The translations under genes and the position numbers were made by a program. The notes under the pieces were generated by a model. That model worked only from the letters and a program-made list of their open reading frames with translations. It was not told the DNA's origin and ran no database searches. Below, piece by piece: positions 1 through 39,285 of a stretch of DNA of 39,285 bases. The stretch covers positions 1 through 39,285 of IMG/VR virus record IMGVR_UViG_3300018033_000002, one strand, 5' to 3'. Numbering within the stretch: position 1 is the stretch's first letter; every line of letters begins with the position of its first letter. The stretch is from a virus.

Positions 1-1298
1 CAGCGTACTCCATCGTCTGCGCCGGCACCACGGCCACCGGTGTATTTCAGAACGTAGTTGGTGTTGGATCAGCTGGAAATATCTTGCGATCTGCTGGAGC
101 TTCCGCATTGCCAGCTTGGACAACAACGACATACCCAGCTACCAATGCTATTAACACAATCATGTATGCAACAGCGGCGAACGTTTTGGGAAGTATTGCA
201 GCTGTAGACAATGGTGTACTAATTACTTCAGCCACAGGCGTTCCTTCATTTTTGGCAGACGGTACAACAGGCCAGGTCTTGACTGCAACGACTGGTTCTC
301 CGCCATCTTGGGCAGCTCCATCAGCTTCCAGCATAACAATTACCGGAGACGTTGGAACACAAACAGGAGCGACTTACAATTTCAGAGCTGGTGTTGATAC
401 GCCAGCGGATGCCGGAGGCACAGCTAATTTTAGTATTGCTTCAGGGCAGGTAAACCTCAATTTTACGAGCGCAACCAATACTAATACTGTACTAGGAAGT
501 TTAGGGGGAACTGGAGGTTCTGAAAATACAGGATTAGGATCTCAAGCTCTTGAAAGTACGTCAGGTACTCAAAATTGCGCAATTGGTCAAGGAGCACTTT
601 ATGAGGTAACTAGCGGAAGTTATAATACTGGATTAGGTTATGCAGCTGGAACGGCTTATAGAGGCTCGGAATCGTCCAATATAACCATATCAAATGTAGG
701 TGTGACAGCTGAATCTAATGTTATAAGAATTGGAACGCAAGGAACCGGAAACGGCGAACAAGGCACCTGCTATATAGCCGGTATTGTTGGAGTAACTGCA
801 TCAAATCCTGAAATGGTCACGATCAACTCATCTACTGGCCAAATGGGTGTATCTACGATTCTTTATCCTGGGGTCGCATCAAATGCTGGTACGTCAGCAG
901 CACCAACAGGAACTTCTTCAACAGCCGCTTATGTTATGATGGGATTGGGTTCATCCTGGAAATTAACACCATCGATATATACGACTGTAAGAATAACCAT
1001 CAATGGACAAATGAAAAATGCAACAACGGCTGATGGAATTAATATAATCATGGCCTACGGTACAAGTGGTGCTCCAGGAAATGGAGCAGCAGTTACAGGG
1101 ACAGCAGTGGGCATAAATACAATTTTCACAGATTTAACAGGTTTAACGAGCAACGGCGTGCCCTTCGCAAAAAATTACATTATTACCGGATTAGTTGCAG
1201 GAACTGCCTATTGGTTTGACCTGCAATGCAAAGCTGTTACGGGCGGAACGGCTTCTGTTTTGAATCTAGAATTTACAGCTCAAGAATTACAGTATTAA
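1..1298 (+). CDS. Tail fibre/spike protein, C-terminal part (continues from window end)
   Basis: The frame is open from the first bases with no start, and joins in phase to the frame ending at 39285, giving a 585-residue fibre. The first visible residues resemble the [19 protein letters not shown]-type segment found in phage fibre proteins. A middle section has repeats of the [22 protein letters not shown] kind, typical of YadA-like or trimeric beta-roll stalks. It is followed by a [13 protein letters not shown] segment and a C-terminal domain of about 140 residues rich in Ser/Thr/Gly, ending EFTAQELQY. That last domain is inferred to be the receptor-binding tip. Low charge and no Cys-rich clusters fit an exposed trimeric fibre. 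Identification as a fibre is firm; the receptor is unknown. Confidence 0.85.
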
Positions 1299-1311: not shown

Positions 1312-1443
1312 ATGCCATTAGACAAATCTAAATCAAAAGAAGCCATCGGAAAGAATATCAAGACAGAAGAAGCTGCTGGCAAACCTAGGAAACAAGCGAT
1401 TGCCATTGCACTAAATGTTGCAGGAAAATCGAAGAAAAAGTAA
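1312..1443 (+). CDS. Small basic phage protein (43 aa)
   Basis: Starts at ATG 1312, 13 bases after the fibre stop, behind an AGGAAAA ribosome site. The product begins [19 protein letters not shown] and ends in a Lys-rich tail. Short proteins with this pattern (basic start, an [16 protein letters not shown]-like helix, basic end) are recurrent in phage genomes as uncharacterised small proteins; I recognise the type but no function is established. It is probably co-transcribed with the fibre gene. The stop TAA overlaps the start of the 19-base hairpin at 1443. Confidence 0.65.
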
Positions 1444-1732: not shown

Positions 1733-1958
1733 AGTTCGTCGGATGAACATTGATCACCGGAGGAGCCGCCGGAAGATCTTTATTGCGAATCTGGACTAGA
1801 ATATCAATATCAGTTTCTTTCTGCATAGAAGCCTTGTCAACCGTTATGTTAATAGCTTCATCCGTTACCGCATCATCAATTGCCTGGGTCAATCCAGGTA
1901 TCATTGCTGCGCAGCCGCTCAATAGCATCATTGATCCGATCATCAAGATAATTTTCAT
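1731..1958 (-). CDS. Small lipoprotein (75 aa)
   Basis: A type II signal peptide is visible: MKIILMIGSMMLLSGCAAM, with lipobox LSGC at residues 13-16, so the mature protein of about 60 residues would be lipid-anchored. The C-terminus is Pro-rich (LPAAPPVINVHPTN). ATG overlaps the stop of the ERF gene and has AAGGAG upstream. Phage lipoproteins of this size act as superinfection-exclusion factors or Rz1-type outer-membrane spanins. Its place behind recombination genes argues for an early or lysogenic conversion role; the short Pro-rich tail would also fit a spanin. Confidence 0.75.
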   Translation of the reverse strand: MKIILMIGSMMLLSGCAAMIPGLTQAIDDAVTDEAINITVDKASMQKETDIDILVQIRNKDLPAAPPVINVHPTN

Positions 1959-2587
1959 GCTTTCTCCTTCTTAGTTGGATTCCATTTCTGAAATGATGCC
2001 AGAAACTCCGGCAATCTCTTTAAAGCTTCTCTTTTTACATCTTCAACATGCTTATTCATCGCACCTGAGCTATATTCTAGAAACTTTTGCATCTTCTTAT
2101 TATCAATCTTACCTAATTTAGTCTCAACCTCAGAATCAAATTCTAGGCACTTTGCAGGCTCATAGGGCGTGTTTTGATCTTCATCAGGATCTTCACCTGT
2201 TTCAAGGCAAAATGTCTTCAAGAGGGCGTATTTATATGCATATGAAATAGCCTTTCCAGGTCCCTTATCTTGCGGATCAATTCCATATCCAACCGCCTTA
2301 ATTGCAAAGTTATCCGTAGGACAATCCGCATTGAAGAACATGACCAAAAGCTTAACCTCTGTGCGATTTCCTTCTTGCTTAATTTCTTCGACAGATGGCA
2401 AGCATGTTATGCCATACTTTACAAGCAGCGGATGAATCGCAGCAGTCACTTGATCATGGCTTACGAAGCGATATTGACCGTTCACACGACTTTCACCTTT
2501 CTGGATATAATCGAGTTCACCCATGATTCCAATGATCCTCTGGTGTATATTCGAGACTATTCTTTGTGGTTCTATAGTTTCAATCAT
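1955..2587 (-). CDS. erf: ERF-family single-strand annealing protein (210 aa)
   Basis: The N-terminal 150 residues carry the ERF pattern: YRFVSHDQVTAAIHPLLVKYGI, then GYGIDPQDKGPGKAISYAYKYALLKTF and the acidic GEDPDEDQ. In the family these residues build the ring-forming ssDNA-annealing core used in phage recombination. The C-terminal 50 residues are charged and helical. Its start overlaps the end of the exonuclease gene by eight bases and the upstream ribosome site is weak, suggesting translational coupling. Together with the neighbouring PD-(D/E)XK nuclease it forms an exonuclease/annealase pair. Length is normal for ERF proteins. Confidence 0.88.
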   Translation of the reverse strand: MIETIEPQRIVSNIHQRIIGIMGELDYIQKGESRVNGQYRFVSHDQVTAAIHPLLVKYGITCLPSVEEIKQEGNRTEVKLLVMFFNADCPTDNFAIKAVGYGIDPQDKGPGKAISYAYKYALLKTFCLETGEDPDEDQNTPYEPAKCLEFDSEVETKLGKIDNKKMQKFLEYSSGAMNKHVEDVKREALKRLPEFLASFQKWNPTKKEKA

Positions 2588-3137
2588 TTTTTCTAGTTTT
2601 CCTTTTATGAAAATAGTTATAACAATCTAAGGCTGAGGTGAATATCTTAAAATATTCCTTATGATCATATGCTGTGTCAATATTAGGGAAATCTCCATTT
2701 CTTGAGAGGTAGACCAACATAGATCCATGCAACTGTATGCCAGTTTCTTCCAGCAGGTTTCTATACGCAGCCATTTGAAGTGGATAGGTTTTTTGCTTTG
2801 AGACAGATGTTTTATAGTCGACCAGATATCGCTTTCCGTCTTTCGCCATAATGACGCTATCGATCTGTCCTGTATACTCAAGGTCATCACTATGGTACCT
2901 TTCTTCAATAATTTCATAAGAATCGACCTGCGCTTCATGCCATTGCTTATAGCTCTCAATGTATGGCCTCAAGTCTTCATCTATCATGTTTTCCGGTATC
3001 CAAGCATTCTTGGAAAGTCCCGCACAGATACCATGTACTCGGGTTCCTCGGTCGGCTGCTCTTCTCAAGATATCCTTCGGAACAGAATCATAGGATGTAA
3101 AAGGCTTCAAGATATCCGTAACGCGAGGATATTTCAT
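2580..3137 (-). CDS. PD-(D/E)XK exonuclease, RecB/Cas4-like (185 aa)
   Basis: Motifs of the PD-(D/E)XK nuclease fold are in order: RGTRVHGIC near residue 32 (motif I region), GQIDSV near 95 (the Asp), VDYKTS near 110 (D-x-K), and LQMAAYRNLL near 124 (the QxxxY motif of the RecB/Cas4 group). It should degrade or process DNA ends to expose single strands for the annealing protein encoded immediately downstream. ATG 3137 overlaps the stop of the upstream 50-residue gene as ATGA. The C-terminus is basic (HKRKTRKND). Confidence 0.85.
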   Translation of the reverse strand: MKYPRVTDILKPFTSYDSVPKDILRRAADRGTRVHGICAGLSKNAWIPENMIDEDLRPYIESYKQWHEAQVDSYEIIEERYHSDDLEYTGQIDSVIMAKDGKRYLVDYKTSVSKQKTYPLQMAAYRNLLEETGIQLHGSMLVYLSRNGDFPNIDTAYDHKEYFKIFTSALDCYNYFHKRKTRKND

Positions 3138-7689: not shown

Positions 7690-8027
7690 TTTTGTTCCTT
7701 TAATTTCTTAATTTCATCCATCAAAATATCAATTTGCATTTGCATGCATTTAATTTCTGTTCTCAATACATTATAAATATTGATACCTTTATCTTTCATT
7801 ATTCCTGCGACTTTTCTTCTTCTGATTTCTTGTTGTAGTTCTGCTCTTTGTTGAGCATGCTTTGCATTGTAATTTTCTTTGCCTCCATTGCGTCTTACTT
7901 CCGTTGTTAACGTGTTTCTTCCTCTGTCTAACTCAAGACCCATCATCGCATTGCTATATCCTGCACGGAGCATTTTTTCTATCTTTTTTCTTTCTCCATA
8001 ATCAAGGTGACTCAAAGGTTTAGACAT
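7686..8027 (-). CDS. Helix-turn-helix protein, IS30-type N-terminal domain only (113 aa)
   Basis: MSKPLSHLDYGERKKIEKML, then RAGYSNAMMGLELDRGRNTLTTEVRRNG, is the HTH pattern found at the N-terminus of IS30-type transposases (LTxxER..IE..L..G.S...IA..L.R...TI..E..RN). No DDE catalytic domain follows; the C-terminus is a coiled coil (MQMQIDILMDEIKKLKEQ). It is therefore probably a DNA-binding regulator, possibly an excisionase or repressor next to the integrase. ATG 8027 has GAGGG upstream and overlaps the integrase stop (ATGTCTAA). Confidence 0.6.
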   Translation of the reverse strand: MSKPLSHLDYGERKKIEKMLRAGYSNAMMGLELDRGRNTLTTEVRRNGGKENYNAKHAQQRAELQQEIRRRKVAGIMKDKGINIYNVLRTEIKCMQMQIDILMDEIKKLKEQK

Positions 8028-8928
8028 GATTCGCCCTCGGATGTCGTGCATGGAATGTTGCTTGAATCGTTGCGCTACTCAAGTGCGTATATCTCTCTGT
8101 ACTTGCAATTGAGCTATGACCTAAAAGACCTTGTATCATCCTTAGATCTGCGCCATTATCCAACAGGTGACTTGCGCATGCATGTCTCAAACTATGAGTC
8201 GTAACGCCCTCAATTTCAGCTTTCCTTGCATAATGAGCTACCATTGCACAAAGTAAGTTTCTATTAATGCGCTTGCCCATTAAGGTTAAAAATAGAATCC
8301 CTGCTTGCTTACCTCTATGAAAATCAATGTAATGCATGATAGCCCTATATGCCTTTTCTGTTATCGGTATTGCCCTCGTTTTGCTTCTCTTACCACACCG
8401 GACAATAACCTGCTCTTTATGCACATCCTTTAGCTCTAAATCACATAATTCGGAAGCTCTGAGACCCGAACTATACAATAGTTCGAGTATCGCTTTATCT
8501 CTTACACCCGAAGGGGTCAAGCAATTCGGTTGATCTATTAACCTTTCAACCTCCTCAGCAGTTGGCACATTTGGAGCCTTTTGAATATTTCTAGGTGGCG
8601 TTATATCTTCCGTTAAATCAACGCTAATAGCCTTTATTTTGCGTAGGAAGCGACAAAAGCTCTTGATCGACATATAATAGCGATTCAATGTCGAATCGCT
8701 CTTACCCTCTTCCTTTGCGTTTAAAAGATATCCGCGTATTGCTTCACTCTTAAAAGCTTTTACATTCTTGATACGCCTTTCGTCTAGCCAATCAACCAGC
8801 CTAGAAACGTCATGTTTGTATGCTTCTACGGTCAACGGGGCTTTCCCCGAGGCTATCTCCATCACGTAATTCAGCAAAGCTTCTTTCATGGAGAGCGAAG
8901 TTTTTGCTTTTAACTTCAGTTTTTCCAT
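8020..8928 (-). CDS. int: Tyrosine recombinase / integrase, XerC/D-like (302 aa)
   Basis: All catalytic residues are visible in order: Arg in SSGLRASELCDLEL, Lys in GKRSKTRAIPI, His-x-x-Arg in THSLRHACASHLL, His in LLGHSS and the nucleophile Tyr in STERYTHL. The N-terminal SAM-like core-binding domain spans about residues 12-100. It would integrate and excise the phage at an attachment site, which makes the phage temperate. AAGGAGG lies seven bases before ATG 8928. The coding start overlaps the end of the RHH frame by 119 bases. The attachment site itself is not obvious; candidates are the inverted repeat at 11358-11415 and the tRNA-like element at 15444. Confidence 0.93.
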   Translation of the reverse strand: MEKLKLKAKTSLSMKEALLNYVMEIASGKAPLTVEAYKHDVSRLVDWLDERRIKNVKAFKSEAIRGYLLNAKEEGKSDSTLNRYYMSIKSFCRFLRKIKAISVDLTEDITPPRNIQKAPNVPTAEEVERLIDQPNCLTPSGVRDKAILELLYSSGLRASELCDLELKDVHKEQVIVRCGKRSKTRAIPITEKAYRAIMHYIDFHRGKQAGILFLTLMGKRINRNLLCAMVAHYARKAEIEGVTTHSLRHACASHLLDNGADLRMIQGLLGHSSIASTERYTHLSSATIQATFHARHPRANHV

Positions 8929-15624: not shown

Positions 15625-15969
15625 ATGGACGCAGAAGAGTTTTTATACAGCAAGAAATACATTCTAGTCGATCGCACTACCATAGAAAAGATGTTGGATA
15701 CATTCGGATCGTCCGATGAGTTTCTTGCATTCCAGAGAGATCTAACGGGTCTATCGGCGCACTTATATGATATAGCTAACACCATGAAAGATGAAAAAGA
15801 CGAAAACATCTTGATGAACAAGGTTGTAGCTCAGTTATTCGCATTCGGCTATTTCTGTAGAGAGAACATTGAAATCATCAGGCAATGGGTCCAATTGATT
15901 CAATACAAAGAACTCACGAAAGAAGAAAAAGAAGCCATCGATTCTAAAATAATTTCACAAGAAGAATAA
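15625..15969 (+). CDS. Hypothetical protein upstream of large terminase (114 aa)
   Basis: GAGGA precedes ATG 15625. MDAEEFLYSKKYILVDRTTI, then EKMLDTFGSSDEFLAFQRDL and a helix-rich C-terminus (EKEAIDSKIISQEE). The stop overlaps the large-terminase start as TAATG. Position would suit a small terminase, but the GNxRSW-type small subunit is at 11522 and no HTH is visible here, so it may be a packaging accessory. Confidence 0.5.
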   Translation: MDAEEFLYSKKYILVDRTTIEKMLDTFGSSDEFLAFQRDLTGLSAHLYDIANTMKDEKDENILMNKVVAQLFAFGYFCRENIEIIRQWVQLIQYKELTKEEKEAIDSKIISQEE

Positions 15970-17300
15970 TGACCGCAATCACAATTCCTTACGGTTATAC
16001 GCCTCGTATCTATCAAGAAAATATTTTAAATGCTTTAGATAATGGGGTAAAGAACGCCTGTTGGGTCGTCCATCGTCGGGGTGGTAAGGATACGACCATG
16101 TGGAATTACATGATTAAGCGGGCATACATGGAGCCGGGAACTTACTATTATTTTCTTCCCTCCTATGCCCAGGCAAAGCGTGTGATCTGGGATGGGATGA
16201 CGAATGACGGGAAAAGGATGTTGGATTATATTCCAAAAGCCATCATTGATGGTAATCCAAACAACACTGAGATGAAGATTTGGATCAATGGTGCGAATGG
16301 GCAGTCTTTGATACAGCTTATAGGAGCTGATTCCTATGATTCCATAATGGGAACAAACCCAAGAGGCATAGTTTTTTCTGAGTGGTCCCTTATGGATCCA
16401 ATGTGCTACGACTTCGTTAAACCGATCTTGGCTGCGAATGGCGGTTGGTGCGCATTCATTTACACGCCACGAGGTAAGAACTGGGGATGGGATCTTGCGG
16501 AGATAGCTCGCAGAAACCCGCAGGATTGGTTTTTTGAGGTACTCACGATAAAAGAAACGAATGTGCTTACCGAGGATCAGGTCGAGACCGAACGTCGTAA
16601 AGGCATGCCGGAAGATATGATTCAACAGGAATTCTATTGCAACTTCAATCGAGGTCAAGAAGGTTCTTATTATGGAAAACAGATCGAAGAACTTCGCAAG
16701 AAAGAGCAAATATGTCATGTCGGATTTGATCCTTCGATCCCAGTGCGAACATACTGGGACCTTGGGATCGGCGATTCTACTGCGATATGGTTCGCGCAAT
16801 TCGTTAACAAGGAAGTGCACCTCATAAATTACTATGAGAATCAAGGCGAAGGGCTATCTCACTACGCAAGGGTTCTAGACGAGTATCGTCGAGAAACTGG
16901 ATGCATATATGATCTTCACGTAGCTCCACATGACATTCAAGCTCGCGAGCTGACAACAGGTAAGACAAGACTTGAAACAGCTCGTCGGTTAGGTCTGAAC
17001 TACCGTGTTGCGCCAAAGTTGAGCTTAGAATCTGGCATAGAAGCCGTTCGAATGATTCTCTCGCGCTGCTGGTTTGATGAAAAAAGATGTGAACTCGGCT
17101 TGAAGTGTCTTGAGAATTACCGGAAGCAATACAATGAGAAGTTTCGTGTTTATGGTGACAAGCCGTTTCACGATTATACCTCTCACGGAGCCGATGCTTT
17201 TCGGATGCTTGCGATAACGGAGCAGTCCTTTCGGCCGGATCAGGGGATTTCTGATGGTGATTATGATCGCATGAAGGGTCTGTGGGGTTGGAGAGTTTAG
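15969..17300 (+). CDS. terL: Terminase large subunit (443 aa)
   Basis: ATPase part: Walker A-like VHRRGGKDT at residues 35-42, a coupling region YYFLPSYAQAKRVIWDG, and Walker B GIVFSEW near 133-139 with the catalytic Glu. Nuclease part: TYWDLGIGDSTAIWFAQ (first acidic residue), HVAPHDIQARE, and a C-terminal HDYTSHGADAFRML, as in RNase H-fold terminase nucleases. It drives DNA into the capsid and cuts it. Length is typical. Its last 480 bases are overlapped by an antisense frame (16822-17481). Confidence 0.93.
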   Translation: MTAITIPYGYTPRIYQENILNALDNGVKNACWVVHRRGGKDTTMWNYMIKRAYMEPGTYYYFLPSYAQAKRVIWDGMTNDGKRMLDYIPKAIIDGNPNNTEMKIWINGANGQSLIQLIGADSYDSIMGTNPRGIVFSEWSLMDPMCYDFVKPILAANGGWCAFIYTPRGKNWGWDLAEIARRNPQDWFFEVLTIKETNVLTEDQVETERRKGMPEDMIQQEFYCNFNRGQEGSYYGKQIEELRKKEQICHVGFDPSIPVRTYWDLGIGDSTAIWFAQFVNKEVHLINYYENQGEGLSHYARVLDEYRRETGCIYDLHVAPHDIQARELTTGKTRLETARRLGLNYRVAPKLSLESGIEAVRMILSRCWFDEKRCELGLKCLENYRKQYNEKFRVYGDKPFHDYTSHGADAFRMLAITEQSFRPDQGISDGDYDRMKGLWGWRV

Positions 17301-19121: not shown

Positions 19122-21098
19122 ATGGCAACAGATTACGATATAGTTTCTGACTTTACTCAGGACTATAATCGCTCATACATGCTGCTTAATACCTATTATG
19201 CCGAAGCCTACCGTGATGTCGGGTACTACCTCGGCAATCAATGGAGCCTTGACCAGCTGAAATATTTGGGAGACGAACGAAGAAACGCTTTCACATTCAA
19301 CAAGATTCGCAAAACGATTGATATGGTCGGCGGTTTCTTGAATGCGAATGAAAATGCTTCGATCGCGGTTCCATATGAAAACAGTTCAGAGCAGACTGCC
19401 GAACAGCTTACAGAGCTTCTGAGACATGCGTTGCAGCCGAAAGGTTATGCGGCGATGAGAAAAGCTCGGCACAATGCTCTAGTTTCCGGTGTATGCTGGG
19501 TTAGCCCCTGGATCGATTACAGGCAGGATTATGTCAATGGCAGGATTAATTATCATGTTGATAATTGGAATGACGTTATCTGGGACCCGTTCAGCGTGCA
19601 GCATTCGCTTGAGGATTGCACCTTTGTGGCCCGTAGAAAGTACCTGAGCAAGGATGTGATTAAATCCTTGGTTCCCGGATGCGAGAGAGAGATCGACGCA
19701 ATGGGATATGGTAATAGGGATGAGAAATTCACCTATGAGCCTTATGCCCGGCAATGGGGTCTTCAGGAACTTTTGGCTTATAATGAATACTGGAAACAAC
19801 GATACAAGAAGGGTTGGTTGCTCGTAGATAAGGTTACGGGTGAACAGAAACCTTGGAAAGGTGACAAGAGACGCTTGCAGATGATGCAGGAATTGTTTCC
19901 TAATATTGCGGTAATCGAGGGTTATTATAAGACAGTCGATTATAACATTATCGTCGAAAACAGGCTCTTATATAGTGGTGAAGATCCTTGGGGCATCGGA
20001 GAGTACCCTTTTGTCCCCTTCTATTGCGTATTTGACGGTTCATACGATCTATTCCAGTGGAAGATACAGAGTCTCGTCAGACTGCTCCGTGACCCGCAGG
20101 AAGAGTACAATATGCGGAAGAGTAAACTTCTGGATATCGTGGACAGTCAAATTGGCAGTGGTTGGAAAGCAAAATCAGGTGCAGTTTCTAACCCCAAAGC
20201 TTTATTCCAGACTGGTCAAGGCAAAGTCGTATTCTTTAACCCAGGATTTGAACTAGATGATGCACAAAGGATTGATGCGCCTAATATCCCTGAGTCTTTG
20301 TTTGCTCTACAGGAAAGCTTTGATGCTGATATCAAAGATATGGTGGACCTTGGGACTCTAGGTGCAGTTGATACGGATCGCATGAGCGCGATGCTCTTCA
20401 AGATGAAGCAAAGCATGGCGACGATGCAACTCGGTCCAATTGTGGAGAATTTCAAGACGGCTCAATATCATCTTAGCAAGAAAGTCTTAAAGATGATTCA
20501 GAACTATACTCCAGAGAAAGTCGGAAGAATCATTAAGAGTGAGCCGACACCTGAGTTCTACAACAAAACATTCCTTGAGTATGACATTGACATTGTTGAA
20601 CAGGTCATGACTGATACTCAGAAACAGAATGCATTTATGCAGGCCTGGGCGATGAAGCAAGGTGGTGCTATAGTTCCAGATGAGTTGCTTTGGGAGCTAT
20701 CTCCATATCCGATTCAGAAGAAATTCATGGAGAAGATTCAACAGCAAGCCGAAGCGGCCGAGGAACAAGCAAAACAGGATCAGGAAGACAAACAGCAAGT
20801 CAACGAGCTATTGCAAGCAAAGGCTTTTACAGACATTGCACTTGGCGAAGAAAGACTAAGCAGAATCAAATACGACGCGGCATTGAGCGAAGAAAGACTC
20901 GCAGCCGCACAGGAAGAGAGGTCAAGAGGTGTTCTGGATGAAGTGCGTGCAGCTAAAGAGTTCCAAGAAATGGACATTGGCAACGCTGAAAAGATTCTTA
21001 ATATCATTAGGGGTATTGAAGAAGAACAAAGATTAAAAGCAGCCGACACGGTAGTACCGCAGCCAGCTGTTAAAGCAAAAACTGGAGCCAAGGCATGA
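19122..21098 (+). CDS. Portal protein, P22-like (658 aa)
   Basis: MATDYDIVSDFTQDYNRSYM, then YLGNQWSLDQLKYLGDERRN and FNKIRKTIDMVGGFLNANEN, is the typical N-terminal region of P22-type portals (bulky head, Q-W, R-N-A-F-T-F-N-K). Middle and C-terminal parts contain QWKIQSLVRLLRDPQEEYNMR and a long charged coiled coil from about residue 545 (KIQQQAEAAEEQAKQDQEDK), matching the barrel region. The dodecameric portal is the DNA gate of the capsid. Length is close to P22 gp1 (725 residues). Confidence 0.88.
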   Translation: MATDYDIVSDFTQDYNRSYMLLNTYYAEAYRDVGYYLGNQWSLDQLKYLGDERRNAFTFNKIRKTIDMVGGFLNANENASIAVPYENSSEQTAEQLTELLRHALQPKGYAAMRKARHNALVSGVCWVSPWIDYRQDYVNGRINYHVDNWNDVIWDPFSVQHSLEDCTFVARRKYLSKDVIKSLVPGCEREIDAMGYGNRDEKFTYEPYARQWGLQELLAYNEYWKQRYKKGWLLVDKVTGEQKPWKGDKRRLQMMQELFPNIAVIEGYYKTVDYNIIVENRLLYSGEDPWGIGEYPFVPFYCVFDGSYDLFQWKIQSLVRLLRDPQEEYNMRKSKLLDIVDSQIGSGWKAKSGAVSNPKALFQTGQGKVVFFNPGFELDDAQRIDAPNIPESLFALQESFDADIKDMVDLGTLGAVDTDRMSAMLFKMKQSMATMQLGPIVENFKTAQYHLSKKVLKMIQNYTPEKVGRIIKSEPTPEFYNKTFLEYDIDIVEQVMTDTQKQNAFMQAWAMKQGGAIVPDELLWELSPYPIQKKFMEKIQQQAEAAEEQAKQDQEDKQQVNELLQAKAFTDIALGEERLSRIKYDAALSEERLAAAQEERSRGVLDEVRAAKEFQEMDIGNAEKILNIIRGIEEEQRLKAADTVVPQPAVKAKTGAKA

Positions 21099-23964: not shown

Positions 23965-24918
23965 ATGCCAATTACCACAACCGCCCAAGTACCTCCAGAA
24001 GTCAGAACGTATTTTGACAGACTTCTGTTGACCTTGGCACGTCCATACTTTATCTACGACATGTTTGCGCAGCGTAGAACTATTCCTCTTAACTCTGGCG
24101 ATCAAATGATCTTCAGACGTTATGCGACATTGAATGCCGCTACAGTGCCTATTCAAGACGGCACAACTCCTCCAGGAGATAGCTTAGCGGTCACAGACTT
24201 CTCAACTCAGATCAAATGGTACGGCAACTTCGTTGTTATTACCGATCAGGTTCAGTTCACAGTTCAAGATAGAGTGCTTAATGAAAGTACAAGAGTGCTC
24301 TCATTGCAGCTAGGATTGACTTTGGACACCCTAATCAGAAATATGATGGTCGCAACGGCCAGTAGTATTTCTTGCCAATTCGGGGGAAATGGAGATACGC
24401 CGACTCAGATCACAACCGAGGATATAAAAACGGCTGTGAGAGCATTGAGACTGGGAAATGCCCGCTTGATGACAAAGCCAATCCCTGGTGAAAACCGCTT
24501 TGCGACATCGCCTGTACGTAGCTCCTATTGGGGATTCATGGATGTAACCATCCAGAATGACCTAGAAGCGTGTGCAGACTTCTTGTCGGCTGCAAATTAT
24601 CCGAACCCTATGGATGTGCTTGAGGCCGAATGGGGGTCCACAAACAACGTGAGATGGTTATTGTCTACAAATGGTGCTAACAGTGGTACGTCGAACCTAG
24701 GCGCACCAATCTGGCAGAACATCATCCTCGGACAGGAGTCTTACGGTGTAGTTAAACTTGGATCGAAAGAAGCCGAGTTTATCGTGAAGCCATTAGGTTC
24801 AGCCGGAACTGCGGACCCATTAAACCAAAGAGGCTCAGTAGGTTACAAGTATCCATTTGCAACACGCCTCCTGAATGATAATTGGATCACAAGACTATTG
24901 TCGACCCAATTCTTTTAA
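23965..24918 (+). CDS. Major capsid protein, N4-gp56 family (317 aa)
   Basis: MPITTTAQVPPEVRTYFDRL, then FAQRRTIPLNSGDQMIFRRY, ATLNAATVPIQDGTTPPGDS and LSLQLGLTLDTLIRNMM give the N4-gp56-type HK97-fold pattern (P...GDT..FRRY..L…T.P...G.TPPG). Expected to form the icosahedral shell. Length is close to the family. It is preceded by the scaffold and followed by the decoration-type gene with AGGAGG. Confidence 0.9.
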   Translation: MPITTTAQVPPEVRTYFDRLLLTLARPYFIYDMFAQRRTIPLNSGDQMIFRRYATLNAATVPIQDGTTPPGDSLAVTDFSTQIKWYGNFVVITDQVQFTVQDRVLNESTRVLSLQLGLTLDTLIRNMMVATASSISCQFGGNGDTPTQITTEDIKTAVRALRLGNARLMTKPIPGENRFATSPVRSSYWGFMDVTIQNDLEACADFLSAANYPNPMDVLEAEWGSTNNVRWLLSTNGANSGTSNLGAPIWQNIILGQESYGVVKLGSKEAEFIVKPLGSAGTADPLNQRGSVGYKYPFATRLLNDNWITRLLSTQFF

Positions 24919-25651: not shown

Positions 25652-25690
25652 TAATAACGTTACGAGGGAGCCTTAATCGGCTCCTTCGCA

Positions 25691-25709
25691 ATGTAAATCC
25701 GCTTTACAT
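25691..25709 (+). repeat. 19-base hairpin repeat, copy 2
   Basis: Identical to 1443-1461: ATGTAAATCCGCTTTACAT, with 7-bp arms and a 5-base loop. It sits just before AGGAAA and ATG 25719. Position directly ahead of a ribosome site is the same as in copy 1. Confidence 0.75.
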
Positions 25710-36138: not shown

Positions 36139-36777
36139 ATGGGTCTATTCAGCAATCCATTAGGTCATGCAGGGTATCCACCAAACCCACAGACATGCAC
36201 AGTAGTCAATAGCACAGTCAGAGCCGCAACAGCCGCAGAGGTTGCCGCAGGTCTATTAAATGATGTTTATGTATCTCCTGCCACAGCTTCAAGCTTAGAT
36301 GCAGGTCTATTTGCATCTCCTCCAGCTCTTGGAAATTCAGCTCCAAATGCTGTTAATGCAACCACACTCACTTCAACAAGCAATACATCGCTTGCAACCG
36401 CAGTCGCAGCTACAGCGCTTAATCTGGCAAATTCTGCCAATACAGGCGCTTTAGTTGTTAACATTGCAGCTGGTGAGAGCGGAGCAAATTCAACTGTAAA
36501 TATCCTTACAGGAACGCCCACAGCTGGAACTCAGATTCTTAATCTTCTTTCTTCATCTGGTAAATTAGGTTTCTTCGGAGCTACAGCCGTTGTAAAACAG
36601 ACTCAAGCTGCTCTTACGAATAACGTAACAGCAAGCGGAACAACATCAGTTTTGGCAGATTTCACAAGCTTGACAGTCTACGCAACTGATGCTGCTGCGA
36701 TCCATGGAGATATCTATCAATTAGGTTTATCCGTTTCAGGAATTATCACAGCACTTAAAGCTTACGGTATCATGTAA
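36139..36777 (+). CDS. Virion surface / fibre-related protein (212 aa)
   Basis: AAAGGAGGAG precedes ATG, one of the strongest ribosome sites in the window. The product is rich in Ala, Thr, Ser and Asn: MGLFSNPLGHAGYPPNPQTC, then repeated SNTSLATAVAATALNLANSA-type sequence and a C-terminal GLSVSGIITALKAYGIM. It resembles the repetitive shaft part of fibres. The 79 bases upstream are A/T-rich and may hold the promoter of this cluster. Confidence 0.55.
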   Translation: MGLFSNPLGHAGYPPNPQTCTVVNSTVRAATAAEVAAGLLNDVYVSPATASSLDAGLFASPPALGNSAPNAVNATTLTSTSNTSLATAVAATALNLANSANTGALVVNIAAGESGANSTVNILTGTPTAGTQILNLLSSSGKLGFFGATAVVKQTQAALTNNVTASGTTSVLADFTSLTVYATDAAAIHGDIYQLGLSVSGIITALKAYGIM

Positions 36778-36791
36778 AAAGGCGGTCAATC

Positions 36792-37130
36792 ATGGCTCAA
36801 GCTCTATTTGATATTCTAAGAACTATACCTTTCGCATCTATCACAGATGCTTATCTTCCGGCAGGTGGACCATTACTGCATACCTTGCGATGCATTAAGT
36901 TCACGAATGAGACTAATGGGGACATTGTAGTTTCTACGGATGGTGTGAATGATATGATCATCATGCCAGCCGAAAGCTTCACGGTCTATGATCTGTCCAC
37001 AAATGCTCCTCCAATCGATACAGTCGATAACTTGATATTAGCAAGGGAAACCCAGTTCTATATCAAGTGGCTTTCTGAACCATCAGAAGGCTCGTTCTAT
37101 ATCGAAGGTTTCTATGCCAAGGGGGAATAA
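36792..37130 (+). CDS. Small fibre-cluster protein (112 aa)
   Basis: Beta-rich: FASITDAYLPAGGPLLHTLR, then CIKFTNETNGDIVVSTDGVN, MPAESFTVYDLSTN and a C-terminal FYIKWLSEPSEGSFYIEGFY. This FTNxTxxxVxxSxDGxxxxxxxPxxSxxxxDL pattern occurs in small proteins of podovirus fibre clusters. Possibly a fibre connector. It ends one base before the next ATG. Confidence 0.6.
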   Translation: MAQALFDILRTIPFASITDAYLPAGGPLLHTLRCIKFTNETNGDIVVSTDGVNDMIIMPAESFTVYDLSTNAPPIDTVDNLILARETQFYIKWLSEPSEGSFYIEGFYAKGE

Positions 37131-38003
37131 ATGAGTCATGCTGGATTCTTGAATAACGGTGGTACTGTAGTTCCTGGGGATGTTCCGATTTTCTTCGAGA
37201 CAGATGATGGAACCGCAGAATCATCGATGAATATTATTCTTGTCAATGGTGCAGGTGGAACTACCACATCTGCTCCGGGTGGTTCAAATCAGATTGTAAT
37301 TACATCGGCTGCAACTCCGTTTACTCCTAATGCTACTCTAAATGAGTTTGATGATTTCATTTCACCAACAGGTCAAGGCGGTAAACTTCAATGGCAAAGC
37401 ATACTAGGAAGTTCAGCTCCAATTAATATAAACGGAACGGCTGCAAATCCTGGAATTACTTCATATATTCCTTCTGGTGCAGGTAATGCTAATGGTATTG
37501 CTTTAAATAAAAGAAGTTCTGGTGGACAAAATACGATTGGCGATTTTGTTTTAGGTGGTGGCGTATTTTCTATGAATTGGGTGATCCAACTGACAGTTTT
37601 ATCATCAGGTGGAAATACCTACAGTTTTGCAGCTGGATTAGCAGATGCAACTTCATTAAATACACCAACCAATGCATTTGTCAATGGTGTTTATTTTCAA
37701 TATACGAACAGTGTCAATGGTGGTAACTGGACGTTAAACTGCACTAATTCAAGCACAACAACAACTGTCAATACAGCAACAGCAGCTAATACAAGCTTTG
37801 TCAATCTGGGAATTTCAGTTAATGCAGCAGGAACAAGTGTTGGGTTTACTATCAATGGTGTTACAGTCGGAACAGCCATCATCACAAACATTCCAACAGC
37901 TACGATTACTCCTTTCTTTATGGCAACAAATACTGCTGGCACAAACCCACAGTTAAATGCTGATCTCTGGTACATGTCATACACTTTAACCACACCGAGG
38001 TAA
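37131..38003 (+). CDS. Tail fibre protein A (290 aa)
   Basis: The first nine residues MSHAGFLNN are identical to those of the fibre at 38826, implying a shared attachment to the tail. Then comes a beta-rich stretch (NGAGGTTTSAPGGSNQIVIT) and a jelly-roll-like C-terminal domain with GFTINGVTVGTAIITNIPTA, resembling lectin-type fibre tips. It is a second receptor-binding candidate next to the large fibre. Confidence 0.7.
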   Translation: MSHAGFLNNGGTVVPGDVPIFFETDDGTAESSMNIILVNGAGGTTTSAPGGSNQIVITSAATPFTPNATLNEFDDFISPTGQGGKLQWQSILGSSAPININGTAANPGITSYIPSGAGNANGIALNKRSSGGQNTIGDFVLGGGVFSMNWVIQLTVLSSGGNTYSFAAGLADATSLNTPTNAFVNGVYFQYTNSVNGGNWTLNCTNSSTTTTVNTATAANTSFVNLGISVNAAGTSVGFTINGVTVGTAIITNIPTATITPFFMATNTAGTNPQLNADLWYMSYTLTTPR

Positions 38004-38004
38004 C

Positions 38005-38823
38005 ATGATTTCACAGATAGAAAGCCGTTTAAAAAAAGTTGAAACAAGTTTCCATGACATCATGCGGGACAATAAGAAGATCCTCGAAGATCTTCTATCA
38101 TCCGGCGAAGCAAAAGAGTCATTAGCTTTTATCAATAGCAAATGTCAATCTTTTGAAGATAACATGAAGCAATTCGCGGTATTTTTCCGTGATTCAATCG
38201 CGGTCATGCAAGGTAAGGTTGATGCCAGGAAGCAAGATAATTTAGATCTAATCACAAAAACAGATTCAGACCTGATTAACATCCGAAAAGAATTCTCGGA
38301 TGAAATCATTAGATTTGACGAATGCATCCGAAAGCTTAACAATGAGCTTCGAGTCATAAATCGGCTCATTGAAGATAAGCTTAAGATCATAGTAGATCAA
38401 TTTTTGTTTATCGAAAAAGCTTCAGAAGGATTCAAGTCTATCGTTGAAGGCAATACGAATGAGATTAAAAGATTGAAAGATGACCAGAAAGGCATTGCAA
38501 TTTTCCATGAAGCCCAGGTCAACAGTCTACGCGGTGAAATAAAAGATGCCGCATCCGTCATTGTTTCTCAGTTTGAATCAAAGTTTACGAAGCATCAAGC
38601 TCAAGTTGGAAGCGTTCTAGATAAGATCAAGATCCCGGAATACAAGAACTATGATTCTGAGATCGATGCTATCAAGCAAGATATCTCTACGATTCTATCT
38701 TTGGTTCATTCAACCGCGATCAATCAGCCAGATACTTCTAAGGTAAATGAGAAGATGAAAGTGATGGAACAAAGCATCGCGCAGATCTATAGCCTCCTGA
38801 AGAAATATGATCATGGGAGCTAA
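38005..38823 (+). CDS. Coiled-coil fibre-cluster protein (272 aa)
   Basis: GAGGT precedes ATG. The sequence is nearly all long coiled coil: MISQIESRLKKVETSFHDIM, then heptads such as RFDECIRKLNNELRVINRLI and QSIAQIYSLLKKYDHGS at the end. It has no enzyme motif. Between two fibres with identical N-termini it may be a fibre shaft, adaptor or assembly chaperone. Confidence 0.6.
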   Translation: MISQIESRLKKVETSFHDIMRDNKKILEDLLSSGEAKESLAFINSKCQSFEDNMKQFAVFFRDSIAVMQGKVDARKQDNLDLITKTDSDLINIRKEFSDEIIRFDECIRKLNNELRVINRLIEDKLKIIVDQFLFIEKASEGFKSIVEGNTNEIKRLKDDQKGIAIFHEAQVNSLRGEIKDAASVIVSQFESKFTKHQAQVGSVLDKIKIPEYKNYDSEIDAIKQDISTILSLVHSTAINQPDTSKVNEKMKVMEQSIAQIYSLLKKYDHGS

Positions 38824-38825
38824 TA

Positions 38826-39285
38826 ATGAGTCATGCTGGATTCCTGAATAACGCGCATGGTGACTTTGCATCGACTTATACTGAAGATATAGGCTCAGCT
38901 ACTCCATCAGGTGGAATCTTAGAGATCCTTGGCGGTCCTGGAATCATAACATCAGGATCCGGCAATATAATCACGATAACCGCAACAGGATCCGGGTTTA
39001 CCTGGAATGTTGTGACAAGCGTTTCTCCTGCGAATCCTATCCAGGTTGTTACTGAAAATGGCTACATCTGCACAGGAGCCGCTGAAGTAACTTTCATTCT
39101 GCCATTGGCTCCGGCTATCGGAGATACCTATAAATTCTTCAGCTATTCATCTAAGTTTCGAATCAATCAAAATGCGAATCAGCTCATTCAGATCGGCGCA
39201 GCAGCTACAACAATAGGTGCGACCGGATTCTTAGAAAGCAACTCAATCGGTGATGCTTTAGTTTTAGTTTACATGGGATCAAATA
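38826..39285 (+). CDS. Tail fibre/spike protein, N-terminal part (continues at base 1)
   Basis: GGAG lies before ATG 38826. MSHAGFLNNAHGDFASTYTE opens with the nine residues shared with fibre A. A beta-rich segment follows (GGPGIITSGSGNIITITATG) and then GYICTGAAEVTFILPLAPAI, a common pattern in phage fibres, to GDALVLVYMGSN at the end of the window. One base of the next codon is here and two are at bases 1-2; the joined codon ACA continues as [14 protein letters not shown]. Full length 585 residues. Confidence 0.88.
   Translation, partial: MSHAGFLNNAHGDFASTYTEDIGSATPSGGILEILGGPGIITSGSGNIITITATGSGFTWNVVTSVSPANPIQVVTENGYICTGAAEVTFILPLAPAIGDTYKFFSYSSKFRINQNANQLIQIGAAATTIGATGFLESNSIGDALVLVYMGSN

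Follow-up and report, generated by a model that had tools for sequence, protein, structure and literature searches.

Our analysis indicates that the window, i.e., the whole stretch of 39,285 bases that makes up one virus record, is very likely a near-complete contig of a temperate phage with a circular map, whose two ends each truncate a fibre gene (gene A at the right end, gene B at the left end) and are separated by an unassembled gap. This reading, which is drawn from sequence comparisons, is preferred because in the relatives the module carried by gene A is always followed by a stop, because the motif at which gene B begins is preceded by a linker in every copy sampled, and because the peptide created by joining the two ends is absent from IMG/VR; on these grounds, at least about 0.12 kb would be missing. 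The sequence-only reading had proposed one entire phage genome cut inside a fibre gene. A part of this proposal is retained: the gene order, the length, the permuted starts and the comparison with about 18 relatives, six of which close exactly, point to an essentially whole genome with a circular map that was cut in the fibre region. The other part, i.e., that position 39285 is directly followed by position 1, is very probably wrong.

Gene content and relatives of the phage

Besides the genes listed in Table 1, the window encodes a helicase, a helicase loader and a ParB-like protein. Since its 39.3 kb carry these genes together with those encoding the terminase, portal, head, Erf/Exo and integrase proteins, the data support the view that it would be an essentially whole genome with an unclosed gap in its fibre region and not a closed circle. 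The presence of an integrase gene implies a life cycle predicted to be temperate. No tRNA, and thus no tRNA attachment site, was found in the window.

Table 1. Main features of the window; the join is the junction 39285/1 obtained by abutting the two contig ends.
Feature	Coordinates	Strand	Remarks
Contig tip with anomalous codon use	1..43	+	First 12 complete codons all G/C-ending
Fibre gene B	1..1298	+	5′-truncated at a TAYSVICAGTT-type motif; upstream GGTG linker and start codon expected, missing
Small conserved ORF (small MPL ORF)	1312..1443	+	tblastn synteny; 3′ of the fibres in relatives
Erf-like ssDNA annealing protein	1955..2587	-	phrog_155, E 7.5e-28; synteny anchor right of the join
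Exonuclease	2580..3137	-	phrog_298, E 2.7e-24; synteny anchor
Integrase	8020..8928	-	phrog_1, E 1.5e-46
Terminase large subunit	15969..17300	+	phrog_2, E 5.5e-24
Portal protein	19122..21098	+	phrog_156, E 1.5e-61; anchor for the circular-map comparison
Major head protein	23965..24918	+	phrog_1357, E 1e-39
Conserved tail/fibre-cluster gene	36139..36777	+	Synteny anchor left of the join
Conserved small gene	36792..37130	+	Synteny anchor left of the join
Fibre-type protein	37131..38003	+	29-nt start region (MSHAGFLNN) shared with gene A at 97% identity
Coiled-coil-like ORF	38005..38823	+	ORF of similar length upstream of the gene A homologue in L003 and L216; match in position only
Fibre gene A (MSHAGF...VYMGSN)	38826..39285	+	3′-truncated, open to the contig end

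In IMG/VR, 34 loci are related to the portal protein, most of them at 73-81% identity, and 18 portal-bearing records (G001-G018, mostly 38-41 kb) also encode an Erf homologue. The order g36139-like gene, g36792-like gene, fibres, small MPL ORF, Erf (minus strand) and Exo (minus strand) is largely conserved in about 18 relatives, some members being undetected in some records, and this synteny runs unbroken through the region equivalent to the two ends of the window. The contigs of these relatives share a single circle but start and end at places scattered around it, and the window has the same circular gene order. In most relatives, the two arcs that run from portal to Erf and from Erf to portal are similar to those of the window (22.1 and 17.2 kb, respectively). 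A circular map alone cannot separate pac from cos packaging or from a replicating circular form.

Six of the 18 relatives (G002, G006, G007, G010, G012 and G017) close by exact end overlaps of 41, 75, 99 or 127 bases; they measure 38,412-41,346 bases, to which the length of the window is comparable. The authors of CheckV describe end overlaps of assembler k-mer length as a usual product of the assembly of a circular or concatemer-replicated genome, and their criterion of a closed genome is that both contig ends carry the same direct repeat, exact over 20 bp or more (PMC8116208). The window carries no such repeat: its two ends have no exact overlap of at least 6 bases, and its first and last kb do not share any 12-mer.

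Two repeats were observed in the window. A 29-nt direct repeat (97%) lies at 37130-37158 and 38825-38853, where two fibre genes begin (MSHAGFLNN), suggesting a duplication or a conserved attachment segment. Furthermore, an exact repeat of about 20 nt, AATGTAAATCCGCTTTACAT, is found at 1442-1461, directly following the small MPL ORF, and at 25690-25709, between head genes; it is palindrome-like (ATGTAAA...TTTACAT) and could be a regulatory or terminator site. Concerning the coiled-coil-like ORF that precedes gene A, BLASTP against its positional counterpart gave no significant match.

The right end of the contig

The IMG/VR relatives of the gene A fragment are 44-54% identical to it, and their similarity ceases just beyond the contig end. 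A profile of the GDxxLVxxxxN module carried by this fragment was run on all reading frames of the fetched loci. The module is strictly C-terminal, all 75 non-redundant copies reaching a stop 18-28 residues after the end of the scored module. The closest relative (L003), a complete protein of 172 aa, reads VYMGSN-LFQSFAPQGTLTLN-stop and ends in ...SNLFQSFAPQGTLTLN-stop; that of the closed circle G002 (L216) ends in ...GSNLFFAKAPQGTLTIA-stop, and others end in ...xxWxVxSxGNITVV-stop. A degenerate pattern search matched only the contig of L003 and a second contig (L223) of nearly identical sequence. Since the module ends the protein in 75 cases out of 75, gene A should reach its stop about 14-16 codons beyond position 39285.

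The left end of the contig

Copies of the motif at which gene B begins (TAYxxxC[AG]GTT) were retrieved by a degenerate DNA search of IMG/VR, and 122 distinct copies were sampled among the matches listed. All 122 are directly preceded by a GG[TSLA]-type linker, typically VxxGGTGxxxF (for example, L007 at 14932 and L013 at 10001), and none of these 122 among the matches listed has a GDxxLVxxxxN module within the 30 residues upstream. The closed relative G002 (L216) illustrates this arrangement: the end of its gene A homologue is followed by the start of a new gene, whose GGGTGATSF-TAYAPIAGGTT lies about 0.3 kb past the equivalent of position 39285. Such fibre genes can be quite repetitive, as shown by one viral contig (L061) that harbors five TAYSVICAGTT copies in its fibre genes among the matches listed.

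The join of the two ends

The ORF starting at 38826 has no stop up to the last base of the contig, and the frame 3..1298 (plus strand) is open from the contig start. Their concatenation (460 + 1298 bases = 1758 nt) stays open over 586 codons (585 aa and a stop) without any internal stop, so that the previously noted in-frame join, devoid of stop or frame shift at 39285/1, is confirmed. However, such an agreement is expected by chance in one case out of three because both ends lie in plus-strand fibre genes. The sequences brought together are ...GGATCAAATA at the right end and CAGCGTACTCC... at the left end. It had been proposed that they match the usual continuation of fibre segments (GDxVxLVxxxxNTxWxV); this does not hold, as the likeness of NTAYSIV to NTxWxV is superficial, the relatives going on at this point with S.GNITVV-stop, and as the motif at base 1 is a different and very common fibre motif that follows a GG[TSLA]-type linker. 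Judged by the relatives, no gene is continuous across the two ends, given the stop after the gene A module (75/75) and the linker before the gene B motif (all 122 among the matches listed). Moreover, the pattern GDx-phi-x-phi-VxxxxNTAY, which the joined window satisfies, was found in none of the contigs of IMG/VR. The 586-codon ORF is thus very probably no real gene but two different genes glued together, the C-terminal module of one fibre gene being attached to an internal part of another, and the direct abutment of 39285 and 1 is very probably false.

Alternative explanations

The window could be an exactly complete circle or a permuted headful genome, with positions 39285 and 1 adjacent within one fibre gene of 585 aa, as was first supposed. 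Such a circle would account for the frame open through the join, for the gene order kept across it in the relatives and for a total length inside the range of the closed circles. In addition, some relatives devoid of exact overlap (e.g., G008) keep a protein continuous over their ends, NTAYSIV keeps the spacing and the hydrophobic pattern of the strand that follows GDxxLVxxxxN (compare NSEFQIV in L005), and a one-off natural fusion or deletion is compatible with relatives as distant as those of gene A. However, all the relatives of the module stop at the corresponding point, the join is devoid of the GG[TSLA]-type linker present before all 122 TAY motifs among the matches listed, the join peptide is missing from IMG/VR and the ends do not share the k-mer overlap seen in six of the 18 relatives, so that we consider an exact circle very improbable. 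That two neighboring fibre genes are truly fused in this phage alone, the module running into the TAY segment to generate a new 585-aa fibre in an exactly closed circle, appears even less probable. The least probable explanation would be that the contig is only part of a much larger genome, or a prophage removed from its host, with many kb missing between the ends: the lack of end overlap and the variation of the fibre region among relatives (the anchors being from about 1.1 to 5.7 kb apart) would fit with it, but the two portal/Erf arcs have similar counterparts in most relatives as well as in the six closed circles, and hallmark genes for head, packaging, recombination, replication and integration are all present.

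A further proposal does not exclude any of the previous ones: the first 40 bases or so could be a chimeric tip originating from a GC-richer phage that carries the same motif, in which case even the bases directly to the right of the join would be foreign. All 12 codons at the window start are G/C-ending compared to 28% in the remainder of the ORF (GC3), and the first 45 bases, which are among the most GC-rich of the window, exceed their own gene by 22 points, whereas the excess of this motif over its surroundings does not go beyond 15 points in any of 40 relatives. On the other hand, the motif is somewhat GC-rich in these relatives as well (mean of 6 points), and a search for the exact 25-mer of the window start did not reveal any identical source in IMG/VR. 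Taken as a whole, this composition suggests, without proving it, that the tip is chimeric or recently acquired, a tentative addition that we hold to be possible rather than expected.

Discussion

According to the preferred reading, the contig would be the nearly complete genome of an uncultivated temperate tailed phage whose circular map would span about 39-41 kb and whose assembly would have halted within a variable multi-gene fibre region. The right end would cut a fibre gene short about 14-16 codons ahead of its stop, and the left end would cut the next, or a nearby, fibre gene at the widely shared TAYSVICAGTT motif. The unassembled gap would contain what is missing from both genes, namely the 3′ end of gene A as well as the 5′ end of gene B with its GGTG linker, and the in-frame 586-codon ORF would be a one-in-three chance product of gluing two fragments. 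The minimum of about 0.12 kb is the sum of three parts, the 14-16 codons and stop of gene A, a short spacer, and a stretch of about 24 codons up to the motif, which is about the shortest N-terminus seen upstream of this motif among the matches listed; a gap of a few hundred bases is plausible. The size of the fibre region was discarded as a basis for estimating the gap, this region being too variable among relatives. While the gene order, the lengths, the closure of relatives and the rules on stop and linker were observed, the gap size and the cause of the assembly break, i.e., the shared motif or strain variation, are inferred; shared and recombining fibre motifs would be a natural stopping place for short-read assembly.

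The portal has no match of at least 60% identity in the annotated phage collection. Its sole close match in the genome collection (L222, 80% identity) comes from a Chlamydiales MAG, where it is located on a contig of 5.3 kb (JAJFUY010000172.1). Portal homologues were found in 11 of the 232 genomes of that phylum, the only one surveyed; most are more distant and several lie on stand-alone contigs of 35-41 kb. A Chlamydiota host is therefore proposed as a lead only, since mis-binning is possible.

It should be emphasized that closure is only weakly supported by a frame that stays open across contig ends when these lie in modular fibre genes, given that modules of different genes look alike and frames agree one time in three; the present case was decided by what always precedes or follows each module in relatives. 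The finding itself is ordinary, since the joined "gene" would consist of two distinct genes between which a short stretch is missing, and the phage genome is a further member of a known group, a clade well represented in metagenomes.

Compared to contigs with direct terminal repeats, which are regarded as closed genomes (PMC8116208), the window lacks the signature that six of its relatives display. Gene A carries an unnamed C-terminal module, GDxxLVxxxxN...GNITVV-stop, without PHROG match, at 44-54% identity, but its copy is deprived of the last 14-16 residues and stop, as the contig ends there. Likewise, gene B begins exactly inside another unnamed fibre motif, GGTGxxxxTAYSVICAGTT, whose linker half is missing from the window as the contig starts there. 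At the scale of the genome, the closest known systems are IMG/VR relatives such as IMGVR_UViG_3300027432_000001 (G002) and IMGVR_UViG_3300031456_000013 (G017), with portals 73-81% identical. While six of G001-G018 close by end overlap and the window does not, and while their fibre genes differ strongly, all these elements of 36-41 kb share with the window the order tail, fibres, small MPL ORF (where found), Erf (minus strand), Exo (minus strand) and portal/head.
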